Assembly (NCBI GenBank): GCA_015178975.1 | Contig: WHVD01000264.1 | Span: 21,117 to 85,116, forward strand | From: Hysterangium stoloniferum | Taxonomy: Eukaryota; Basidiomycota; Agaricomycetes; Hysterangiales; Hysterangiaceae | Direction of reading: 5' to 3' | Length of the DNA stretch: 64,000 bases | Shown: positions 20,895-24,553 of the stretch, one piece after another | Numbering within the stretch: position 1 is the stretch's first letter | Layout of the letters: each line of letters begins with the position of its first letter | Notes under the pieces: generated by a model | What the model was told of the DNA's origin: nothing | The model's input: only the letters and a program-made list of their open reading frames with translations | Database searches by the model: none | Translations under genes and position numbers: made by a program

Positions 20895-22210
20895 TAGTCT
20901 CAGAATAGATACTACTATTTAAAGATGAAGTTTTGTAGCAATATTGCTTTTATTAGTAAACATTTGATATTATAATGATTACAGACAGCCTCCTTTGAAA
21001 TGCCAGAGTGTTAGGACTGGAAAACCTGCTGGGCTCCAGATCCCATCCTACATGCACCCAACTTGCTATACCAAGTTACAGCTAAACTGGAAAACCCGCC
21101 AGGACCCAGACATCAAGCCTGTCTATGCCTGACCCCCTGTGTCTCATGCATCAGTCACCAGACCCTGCCAGGACCTGCACATGTCAAAGCCTGTCTATGT
21201 CTGACCCTGTTCCATGCACCAGTCACCAGGCTCTGCCCAGATAAGCCAACAGCTCTCTAATTGAGCCCTGTTCCCATTATGGTCTAATGACCTGTCATAT
21301 TTTAGACTCTGCCTCCATTCCATTCCATTCCTAACACCTAATTTGGTGTTTACTTATCTCATTTCATGATTACTTGTTTGGATCTCATTATTACCGTATT
21401 TGGTATTGCATACATTCTACAGTCTATATAAACTAGCTAATGTTGTACATATGTACAATCTGGTCAGAAAATCAACTAAGTTTTCAGACTAAGTCCTCCC
21501 CCAGTTACTTAGCATATACCCACTCCATCCCCATCTCACAATGCTATTGACCTCATCAGAGCCCACAGACTTTCTGACTGGTCTTCACTCCACCCCCATC
21601 TCTCATATCACAACACTCACTCAACCTCATCAGAGCCTGTGGGCTTCCCCATTGGTCTTTCAACCTATCAACCCCTGACCTATCATGTCACAAATCAAAT
21701 ATTCTTCAATAAAGTTGAATAATATGCTATTGATTGAACTCGAAAGCCTCGTTCAATGAAGTATATATTTGCCCTGTCGATGAAGTAAGAGGCTATTACC
21801 AGTCGTGTGAACTCATGGAAGTATTGTCGAAGAAGTTACAACAAGTTAGATTATTAATATGACACTAATTTTACAGATATTTCAACTGACTTCCCTCACT
21901 CCTTGCGTGGCCCTTTTCTGCTTTTCATTGTATCACTATGACTATATTATAATTTAATAATGAAATCATTCATGACATCGAAATGAGACATGTTGAAATG
22001 AGACATGTCGAAAGAGATTCAATGTTGTTGAATAATGTTTGGGTTTGTTGAGTCGAGTTCGATGAGTTGAAGAGTTGTCAAATATTACCTGAATGTTTGT
22101 AACAATGTTGTGACTTGTGATGGTTGTGACAGTATCCTCCCCCTGTGACCAAGCCCACGAGGTTGGAGTTTAAAAAGTTTTCATTGTCTATTTTCATCTT
22201 CAATCAATCA

Positions 22211-23041
22211 ATGTCTGACATAGAAGGTGATGATTTCAAATCAGACTCCGAATTCTTGGGTTTCGAAGATAAGGATATAGAAATCAATGCAGTTGGCAAG
22301 TGAATTTCTGGGATTTCTTGAAATTAGTTAATTAGTTATTTTTTTAGAAGAAATTCCCAAAAAATGATTAATGGATTGTGAGGAACCATTTGATAAGACA
22401 AATTGCAAAGGAATCAAGATGCAATGGGAGTTTGAGGCAAAATCAGAAAATTTGTAAGTTTTTCGATTTGTTGAATTTTGATTTAAGATAATTTGTTTTT
22501 CAGTTGCATGATGTGTTTTAATGCGAATTTTGTATGCAAGAAAACAAATGCATTGTCAAATTGTGATTGTTGCAATTGATTGCATCGGGCCTGTTATTGG
22601 ACCATAAATAGACCACCTGGAAAACCATGTCAAAGTCGAAACAAAAGTCAAAATGTGATTGAAGAATCAGATGATGAGGTCGAAAATGGTAGTCCTGGAA
22701 TTTGAAAACTCAGTCAAAGGAAGAATATTCGTCATAATGTCATGTCAAGAATGTCAAATTTTTTGAGAAGGTTGAGAAGGCTGGAGAATCGATTGGATAA
22801 TCACTTGGAACAAGAAATGAAATTGATGTGGGAAAAAATGTCAAAAATGGAGAATACAATTGAGGATTTAATTGGTGAGGTCAAAGCATTTAGGGATGAT
22901 TTTTCAGTTTTGTTGAAGAAATTGGTTGAAAGTGGGGATTTTAGTGAAGAAACTGATATAAGCATTGATAGTGGAATATTTAGGGGGGCATGGTTTGATA
23001 AGATGGCAGAATTGAGAGAAGAGGGGATTGAGGATTTATAG
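22211..23041 (+). pseudogene. Three-exon Cys-rich, coiled-coil gene of unknown function
   Basis: ATG 22211 opens an acidic N-terminus (MSDIEGDDFKSDSEFLGFED). Exon 1 would end at 22295 with a GC-AG intron (GCAAGT, 22296-22347); a GT at 22300 is the alternative but breaks the frame. Intron 2 is canonical (22454-22503, GTAAGT...TTTTTCAG). The joined frame has a Cys cluster (CMMC, then CKK, CDCCN, HRACYW), a basic linker and a coiled coil (RRLRRLENRLDNHLEQEMKL) and ends at TAG 23041. It is broken only by three TGA codons (22365, 22577, 22703), each where CGA (Arg) would fit. I do not recognise the family; the Cys pattern suggests a zinc-binding domain. Confidence 0.7.
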
Positions 23042-23084
23042 ATACTTAAAAACTTGATTTATTTAATTTTTTGGTATTTTTGAT

Positions 23085-23138
23085 TGTTTATTTGACTTTA
23101 TTGAGTAAAATTCGATTCGTGACAGTGTTTTCTGACTG
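23085..23138 (+). promoter_or_regulatory. H LTR 3' end and self-primer binding site
   Basis: The sequence ends in TTCGATTCGTGACA (23124), the LTR end in plus orientation. Three nt later TTTTCTGACTG begins. This is complementary over about 12 nt to CAGTCAGAAAAC at 24029-24040 in the H LTR, near the predicted transcript start. This is the arrangement of self-priming elements such as Tf1. Confidence 0.7.
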
Positions 23139-23244
23139 CCAACTGTTGATGAAGCATAGGACACTCTGAGCACACACCACAAATTCAATTCATTTCACAT
23201 CCCCTTCATCCATCATTCCCACAACAACATTATCTGGACTCGTC

Positions 23245-23418
23245 ATGTCAAGTGGTATTAGGACTCAATCAGCTGCAAGCAATACAATCCTAAGATTGAC
23301 TAGCGATCTGGCCATTACATCATTCAAACCTATTTCGACAATCTTCAAGAAATCCGAATCCAATTCAATTGTCAATCGAGACTTTATTGGAAAAAGAGAC
23401 ATGCTTCAATCTGGGTGA
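23245..23418 (+). pseudogene. Short open frame downstream of the H primer site (gag N-terminus?)
   Basis: ATG 23245 opens 57 codons (MSSGIRTQSAASNTILRL and onward) ending in GGGTGAGTC, which is either a stop or a 5' splice site. The position after LTR and primer site is where gag begins in Ty3-type elements. No gag motif is visible, so the name rests on position only. Confidence 0.35.
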
Positions 23419-23499
23419 GTCAAATTATTTATTTCCAAGAAGATTTACAAGAAATCAAAATCCCAGACTTTTCAATTCTTCTACCACACAATTATCTTC

Positions 23500-23700
23500 T
23501 GACTTCTTCTTTCCAACTTTCGCAGGTTACTGATTTTTGAAGATTTCTGACTTTGAAATATTTTGATTTTTGAAGATTTCAACTTTTTGACTTTTGACTT
23601 TTGAAGATTTCGAACTTTTCGAGATTTCCGATTTTCAAATATTTCTGACTATCGAAGATTTTCAACTTTTGAAAATTTCCGACTTTTTGATTTTCTTGAT
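23500..23700 (+). repeat. Degenerate TTGAAGATTTC-rich low-complexity tract
   Basis: The words GACTTTTGAAGATTT and close variants recur about eight times. The same CGAAGATATT/CTTCGACATT vocabulary appears in the H LTRs, so it probably grew from the element. Confidence 0.55.
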
Positions 23701-23782
23701 CAAATCAATATTCAAGTGAAATCTGGGACTATCAATTCAATCACAATTCGACCTCATGGGCTCAGTCATAAAAGGGGAATAC

Positions 23783-24356
23783 TGTCACGAACATACAAAC
23801 TCAATTTTCGATAATATTCAATTTAATATTTCTTCGACATTCCTTCGACTTTCTGACTCAACTTCTGACTTGACTATTCTTTGACAATATCTTCAACAAT
23901 CTCGAATATCTTCAACTTGTCTCAGTTTGACATCATTGATGATTTCACTTTGATATCATATTATCATCATAGGTAAATGATATATAGTATATGTATACTG
24001 TAAGGGCAATGATAGGAATGAAGAAAGTCAGTCAGAAAACCTGTATAATAATTATATTATTAACTGTATTATATAATCTCGAACTTTTTCCGAGTCCTCC
24101 TTTCTATAAATTATTTGTGAGCCTCTGTGTCCTATCTTTTGCCCTTATATACTATATATCATTTACCTATGATGATAATATGATGTCAAAGTGAAATCAT
24201 CAATGATGTCAAACTGAGACAAGTTGAAGATATTTGAGATTGTCGAAGATATTGTCAAAGAATAGTCGAGTTCGAAGTTGAGTCGGAATGTTGAAGGAAT
24301 ATTGAAGAAATATTAAATTGAATATTATCAAAAATTGAGTTTGTATGTTCATGACA
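23783..24356. repeat. Fold-back of two H LTR pieces, with purine tract upstream
   Basis: Preceded by AAAAGGGGAATAC (polypurine tract, plus orientation). It starts TGTCACGAACATACAAACTC and ends in the inverse. The left piece runs in plus orientation as far as about 24147, then the sequence switches to the minus-oriented copy. Confidence 0.75.
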
Positions 24357-24553
24357 TATCAACTACACCCAGACTCCCTGGGTTTTCTGTCTGCCTATTT
24401 GAAATTGGACACTACGATCTTGTGAGGGTGCAGCCTATAAGCTGAAGCCAAGTCCTACTGGAATATCTGTGGGTTTCTCTGGAAACCCTCTGCTAAACTC
24501 TCCATGCATCTTAACACAGAGCACCTGACAGTGCCATGTGAGGGTGCAACACA

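Follow-up and report, generated by a model that had tools for sequence, protein, structure and literature searches.

The 64,000-nucleotide stretch of contig WHVD01000264.1 from the basidiomycete Hysterangium stoloniferum that was analysed here, called the window below, carries a 2,671-bp insertion (positions 21686-24356) whose left part belongs to a retrotransposon family named family A. This can probably be considered a Ty3/Gypsy family with an accessory protein gene that contains two short introns, lies antisense between pol and the 3' long terminal repeat (LTR), and encodes a regulator of the element. The gene holds its antisense position in a complete element, is present in many copies, has kept its introns, is under constraint in all three exons, and has an intact counterpart in a sister family. 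The insertion in the window is itself a degenerate, chimeric Ty3/Gypsy copy, to which such an element has contributed no more than its 3' end.

The antisense gene in family A

An earlier note on this stretch, made from the window alone, had proposed a search for other element copies carrying the gene and had counted their absence against its own reading; the opposite was found. A DNA search of the source assembly (111 Mb, 554 contigs) with the gene gave 147 candidates, and all 40 of those scored match it, with 78-100% identity. In 36 of the 40 more than 830 of the 861 query bases are covered and the genome and query spans differ by at most 18 bases, so both introns, together 102 nt, are present in these 36 matches. 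Twenty stretches of approximately 10 kb were fetched, and 21 gene copies were aligned for the gene model. LTR-A, the LTR of family A, adjoins the gene in 16 of the 20 stretches (the others being L028, L030, L035, and L040), although it is interrupted in L023 and L029. Beyond the gene, integrase and/or reverse transcriptase (RT) is encoded on the minus strand in all stretches but one, L028, displaced in some by inserts (L036, for example); the gene is antisense to the retroelement in these 19 of the 20, in agreement with the earlier note, which had read the left LTR and its purine tract of the window insertion on the minus strand and the gene on the plus strand.

One copy, G000:C431:156057-163802 (stretches L027, L041, and L043), was traced from end to end. 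It is 7,746 bp long, including another repeat of approximately 0.8 kb, and has the order LTR, gag, pol, antisense gene, LTR, with gag-pol on the minus and the gene on the plus strand. Its two LTRs have the same orientation and are 94.2% identical over 431 bp, and CTCAT is present on both sides. The pol pieces of several family-A copies match the Pfam models for gag, zf-CCHC, RVT_1, RNase H, and integrase. The features characteristic of Ty3/Gypsy elements, i.e., direct LTRs, gag, the RT-RNase H-integrase order, and a target duplication, are thus found in the complete copy and in the Pfam matches of the pol pieces.

The frame of the gene was examined through the distribution of substitutions over codon positions, with a tree built from 20 of the 21 copies, L020 being left out because its coverage was below 85%. 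Transversions per site amount to 0.144 at position 1, 0.107 at position 2, and 0.337 at position 3, compared with 0.333 in the introns and 0.350 in the flanks; this contrast was reached by none of 20,000 permutations, and position 3 is the highest in each of the three exons. The values for positions 1-3 are 0.045, 0.037, and 0.128 on internal branches, where non-coding sites have 0.132, and 0.099, 0.070, and 0.210 on terminal branches, where non-coding sites have 0.210. The constraint ratio of the antisense gene is 0.37 versus 0.38 for the integrase of 14 copies, whose positions 1-3 have 0.019, 0.038, and 0.076 (5, 10, and 20 changes). Protein-level constraint acts on all three exons, and the possibility of a chance frame was rejected on account of the many copies and the codon-position signal.

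A search for integrases, in which 145 of 4,254 candidates were scored, gave 146 rows. The 64 that belong to family A are 76-100% identical, and since only 11 of them are stop-free, the family looks old. With 120 of 2,944 matches listed for its RT, named relatives are found in Pisolithus tinctorius (67% identity at a coverage of 83%), in two frogs (64% identity), and in a catfish (60-61%).

Introns and predicted promoter

The site of intron 1 holds 40-59 nt in all 19 family-A copies that cover the region, and that of intron 2 holds 50-61 nt in all 21. Of the 18 copies that retain the donor of intron 1, 16 have GT there, and the acceptor of this intron is AG in 18 of 19; for intron 2 the donor is GT in 16 of 21 copies and AT in the remaining five, and the acceptor is AG throughout (21/21). 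Genome-wide, with up to three mismatches allowed, unspliced patterns were found 62 times for the intron 1 donor and 79 times for the intron 2 acceptor, and the spliced joins of exon 1 with exon 2 and of exon 2 with exon 3 were found 0 and 0 times, a count that would miss spliced copies of greater divergence. The persistence of antisense introns, which the earlier note had expected, was thereby borne out. The genomic RNA of the element would be made from the minus strand, in which the introns of the gene are antisense and would remain unspliced, to be copied into new insertions and thus to survive reverse transcription. Their survival follows from the orientation of the gene, and the absence of spliced copies agrees with it. 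In the broader and more tentative view given below, the introns of such an antisense gene would preserve a record of the strand that acts as the genome.

At positions -42 to -44 from the ATG, the copies of family A have either GTTTAAAA (6 of 16) or GTTTGAAA (10 of 16). The antisense gene may be transcribed towards pol from a small promoter located between the 3' LTR and the ATG, and the host spliceosome would excise both introns of the transcript.

Sister and third Gypsy families

The remaining 82 integrase rows belong to the sister group, are 64-67% identical to family A, and are stop-free in 80 cases. The sister Gypsy families look young, as judged by these stop-free rows, reading frames that stay open over as many as 1,304 codons, and many equal scores. 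In one copy of the sister family whose integrase is 66% identical to that of family A, L044 (C1:274800-278000), pol ends at 553 with a chromodomain scoring above the Pfam cut-off, and the intact antisense gene (G000:C1:276473-275476, minus) comprises exons at 1674-1372, 1318-1238, and 1189-677, separated by introns of 53 nt and 48 nt and encoding 298 aa without a stop; beyond it, from about 1852, there is a purine tract followed by the LTR. A search with the sister exon 3 gave 151 matches from 150 of 648 candidates scored, and the 150 listed are 53-100% identical, 82 of them stop-free. When these 150 rows are set against the integrase rows, 44 of the 82 sister integrases have the gene 596-814 bp downstream, in all 44 on the opposite strand and in none on the same one. 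The donor of sister intron 1 occurs 30 times genome-wide and the two spliced joins 0 and 0 times.

A third family is represented by L045 (C2, integrase 65% identical). The AT-rich sites upstream of the ATG lie at a distance of 42 nt in the window copy, 63 nt in L044, and 62 nt in L045, where the site upstream of the antisense open reading frame is TATATAAA. Both L044 (2611-3201) and L045 (3099-3201) are accompanied by an open reading frame that, by eye, resembles a Tc1/mariner transposase.

Predicted product

The product of the family-A gene has the motif C-x2-C-x6-C-x8-C-x2-C-x6-C, followed by a probable coiled coil. The spacing of Zn(2)-Cys(6) clusters is C-x2-C-x6-C-x5-12-C-x2-C-x6-8-C, and the family-A motif agrees with this general pattern; when the sequence of one family-A protein was shuffled 200,000 times, the pattern never appeared. 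In the sister exon 3 the motif is C-x2-C-x6-C-x10-C-x2-C-x6-C, present in L044 and in 8/8 other rows, these eight having been chosen as stop-free and their frame picked by the motif itself. The likeness to the Zn(2)-Cys(6) cluster (PF00172) thus consists in the spacing, with x8 in family A and x10 in the sister family, and in the coiled coil; together with a Pfam score below the cut-off, it makes the term zinc-cluster-like a spacing argument with weak profile support.

The coiled coil was judged from the sequence and from chains with zippers or other coiled coils that match it weakly. Comparison of the family-A product with solved structures gave weak matches only, mostly to coiled coils. The second half of the Cys cluster might also be read as PHD-like, given the general form of that motif; the matches bearing on this reading are two bromodomain-protein 1 chains (E 1.5-1.8) and SBP (E 4.2). 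Among protein sequences, a search with a single family-A protein gave no relative at E<=1 in 60 candidates, and a family-A profile built from 12 of the 21 copies, some of them cut at a frameshift, gave no protein relative at E<=10 in 1,920 candidates.

A product with a zinc-cluster-like Cys motif and a probable coiled coil could be expected to enter the nucleus and may regulate the element there as a dimer that binds DNA, in the way in which HBZ regulates HTLV-1. Promoter, splicing, nuclear entry, and regulation are deduced from the AT-rich sites, the conservation of the splice sites, the motif, and the precedents of HBZ and Grande.

Points against the proposed reading and alternative explanations

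Several observations weigh against an accessory gene encoding a regulator. All 17 family-A copies in which every exon is present have an internal stop or a frameshift, so that no intact gene was seen in family A. With transitions included, positions 1 and 2 (1.095 and 1.016 changes per site) do not fall below introns (0.972) and flanks (1.051), and position 3 is far higher, at 2.383; transitions dominate (ratio 3.3), base composition may be the cause, and the coding case rests on transversions and position 3. The AT-rich site reads TTTGAAA in 10 of 16 copies and TTTAAAA in 6 of 16, and the promoter, the splicing, and the protein of the antisense gene are predicted ones. As to the product, Zn_clus (PF00172) is absent among the 25 of 31 Pfam families listed for family A, and in the sister family it is matched by two of seven members, the best match having E 0.0023 and 18.5 bits, below the cut-off of 21, and extending over only 16 of the 39 positions of the model. 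Among the sister integrase rows 38 of 82 have no gene row nearby when compared with the 150 listed, although one of them (C3) has the exon-1 donor site, and in L045 the antisense open reading frame found in the same place (1148-780, minus strand) is coiled-coil-like and lacks the Cys cluster. Finally, the similarity of the family-A and sister antisense proteins in a profile comparison is not significant, which leaves a common origin unsupported by that approach; it is the place and the architecture of the two genes, and not their sequence, that suggest a single origin.

The earlier note had proposed that the element captured a host gene in antisense. According to this explanation a spliceosomal host gene was taken up, and its present copies have since been carried along as passengers. 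A gene of several exons, with short introns of the ordinary kind and a zinc-cluster-like motif, has indeed the look of a host gene, and antisense capture would retain its introns. The search results do not uphold the proposal: with 40 of the 147 candidates scored, neither an element-free nor a spliced copy turned up, the 20 stretches hold no element-free host copy, and no protein relative was found in the searches described above. The four stretches without LTR-A are truncated copies, three of which still have pol. That the gene is a mere passenger is contradicted by the constraint that continues on the internal branches of the element tree and by the gene located in the same place in the sister family. 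Capture with passenger copies is improbable, whereas an old capture, or a distant host gene, is conceivable.

Much less probable still is that the frame is a by-product and that conservation concerns an antisense RNA without coding function, or the DNA between pol and the LTR as such. LTR elements are known to have non-coding antisense transcripts, according to PMC7264820, and the behaviour of positions 1 and 2 once transitions are counted would fit; however, the three-base periodicity in every exon, with introns and flanks at the transversion rate of position 3, a constraint ratio equal to that of the integrase, and the intact frames of the sister family (82 of the 150 listed rows stop-free) all argue for a protein-coding gene.

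Comparison with known antisense genes

The earlier note knew of no such family. That statement has to be corrected, as plant elements and Boty of Botrytis are published examples with an antisense gene in the interval from pol to the 3' LTR, and hbz of HTLV-1 is an antisense gene that is spliced. In the parts of PMC7264820 and PMC11963269 that deal with them, antisense genes are described in the plant Grande, RIRE2, and Retand elements, in Grande with a promoter of their own; 97% of the Retand clusters hold antisense open reading frames with TRP28, a domain that is probably DNA-binding (PMC11963269). The promoter of Grande and the predicted DNA binding of TRP28 are points of likeness to family A; the plant elements differ in their protein domains, and the word intron is absent from the main texts of both papers. 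TRP28 (PF04195) was not matched at E<=10 in the Pfam searches, nor is it among the 25 of 31 families listed for family A.

The Boty-like elements of Botrytis cinerea, as far as they are described in the citing papers, are likewise fungal Gypsy elements. They have gag-pol, a chromodomain, which was found here in the sister family, and brtn as an extra gene in antisense (Zhao et al. 2011, cited in PMC7264820, PMC8365987, and PMC4227169). They differ in having an ascomycete host, and brtn was compared by description, which is silent on introns, and not by sequence. The function of the plant and Boty antisense genes is given as unknown in the corresponding part of PMC7264820. A survey of fungal Gypsy elements marks, in the part concerned, additional open reading frames of unknown function (PMC2864245), the word antisense is absent from the main text of two other fungal surveys (PMC3248453, PMC3411680), and none of the papers listed in the literature searches describes an antisense gene in a basidiomycete element, as judged by titles and the beginnings of abstracts.

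The hbz gene of HTLV-1 is antisense and spliced, is expressed from the end at which the 3' LTR lies, and has a product of DNA-binding type that contains a zipper (PMC10186651). HTLV-1 is, however, a retrovirus, and HBZ has a bZIP rather than a zinc-cluster-like motif, so the resemblance is an analogy for which no relatedness is claimed; the bZIP model is absent among the Pfam matches listed, and PDB zipper chains appear only at E 0.3 and above. Compared with the known antisense LTR genes, the new feature here is the intron-bearing, zinc-cluster-like variant. In a broader and more tentative view, which is possible but somewhat less than even in probability, a spliced antisense gene for a zinc-cluster and coiled-coil protein would be a standing extra gene of Gypsy elements in this lineage and an independent counterpart of HBZ, old, shared by families with two-thirds-identical integrases, and intact in young, high-copy families. 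With many copies, measurable constraint, and an intact intron-bearing relative in one genome, the question of antisense genes becomes testable, and some predicted fungal host genes with such motifs may belong to retrotransposons.

The insertion in the window

The insertion starts with TGTCACAAATC (TGTCAC...) and ends with GTTCATGACA (...ATGACA); its parts are listed in Table 1. Its size and its perfect 5-bp target duplication, which reads TATCA, were correctly described in the earlier note, as were the three-exon gene with two introns of about 50 nt (52 and 50 nt in the 21-copy alignment) and the Cys cluster, which lies in exon 3, with a coiled coil that is probable. In the window copy the reading frame of the gene is interrupted by three TGA codons, one of them in exon 2 and the others in exon 3 (22577-22579 and 22703-22705), and its intron 1 is GC-AG, whereas most other copies have GT-AG; with these three stops and the GC donor it is a relic.

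Table 1. Parts of the insertion and its flanks, in window coordinates
Feature	Position	Strand	Basis
Left target-site duplication, TATCA	21681..21685	none	sequence inspection
LTR-A, 446 bp; outer end is the U5 end	21686..22131	- (retroelement sense)	positions 1-446 match LTRs of other copies
Purine tract beside the 3' LTR; plus-strand letters GTATCCTCCCCC	22132..22143	-	sequence inspection
AT-rich, TATA-like site GTTTAAAAAG, 42-43 nt upstream of ATG	22168..22177	+	copy comparison
Antisense gene, exon 1	22211..22295	+	alignment of 21 copies
Antisense gene, intron 1, 52 nt	22296..22347	+	alignment of 21 copies
Antisense gene, exon 2; in-frame TGA at 22365-22367	22348..22453	+	alignment of 21 copies
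Antisense gene, intron 2, 50 nt, GT-AG	22454..22503	+	alignment of 21 copies
Antisense gene, exon 3: Cys cluster, probable coiled coil; terminal TAG at 23039-23041	22504..23041	+	copy alignment
Tail of the 5' LTR of element B	23058..23124	+	matches copy L042 from its position 1432
Internal region of element B; purine tract at end	23125..23782	+	comparison with other copies
First ~356 bp of LTR-B	23783..24139	+	copy comparison
Inverted piece of LTR-B; outer end is the U3 start	24140..24356	-	copy comparison
Right target-site duplication, TATCA	24357..24361	none	sequence inspection

The right part of the insertion (23058-24356) is not the other end of element A but consists of pieces of a second, short LTR element, B. 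The 210-nt foldback at the right end of the insertion exists because its last piece is an inverted part of LTR-B. In another copy of element B, L042 (311-2628), the two LTRs are 96% identical along 356 bp and 94% along 118 bp; its internal region measures approximately 660 bp, GAAGG is duplicated on either side, and the left LTR contains an insert of approximately 720 bp. The internal region in the window includes, at about 23231-23471, a relic of the Gypsy protease-RT linker, in the orientation opposite to that of the linker in family-A copies, and no gene was seen in element B (matched by window positions 23058-24139). The element is short, apparently non-coding, and TRIM-like, with LTRs of approximately 463 bp, and was perhaps mobilised by a related Gypsy family.

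The insertion ends on one side with U5 of LTR-A and on the other with U3 of LTR-B, a polarity that corresponds to a single ordinary cDNA on the minus strand. The most likely origin of the chimera is therefore template switching, which would have joined the 3' end of the antisense-gene element to element B before integration as a single unit. That the chimera was instead built up at this site through nested insertion combined with deletion and inversion is rather unlikely: pieces of element B do sit inside or beside other family-A copies (L034), but the perfect TATCA at both outer ends and the single-cDNA polarity of the termini speak for integration as one unit. The A-B junction was not seen in any of the 20 fetched stretches. 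The inverted outer ends TGTCA/TGACA and the foldback could also suggest a DNA transposon, or a foldback element, that has 5-bp duplications and a gene of its own. This reading was rejected as extremely improbable, since the A half matches gag-pol and direct LTRs and the B half matches an element with direct LTRs and GAAGG duplications. A minor feature of element B, for which no function is suggested, is the presence of degenerate repeats approximately 17 nt apart at window positions 23510-23703.

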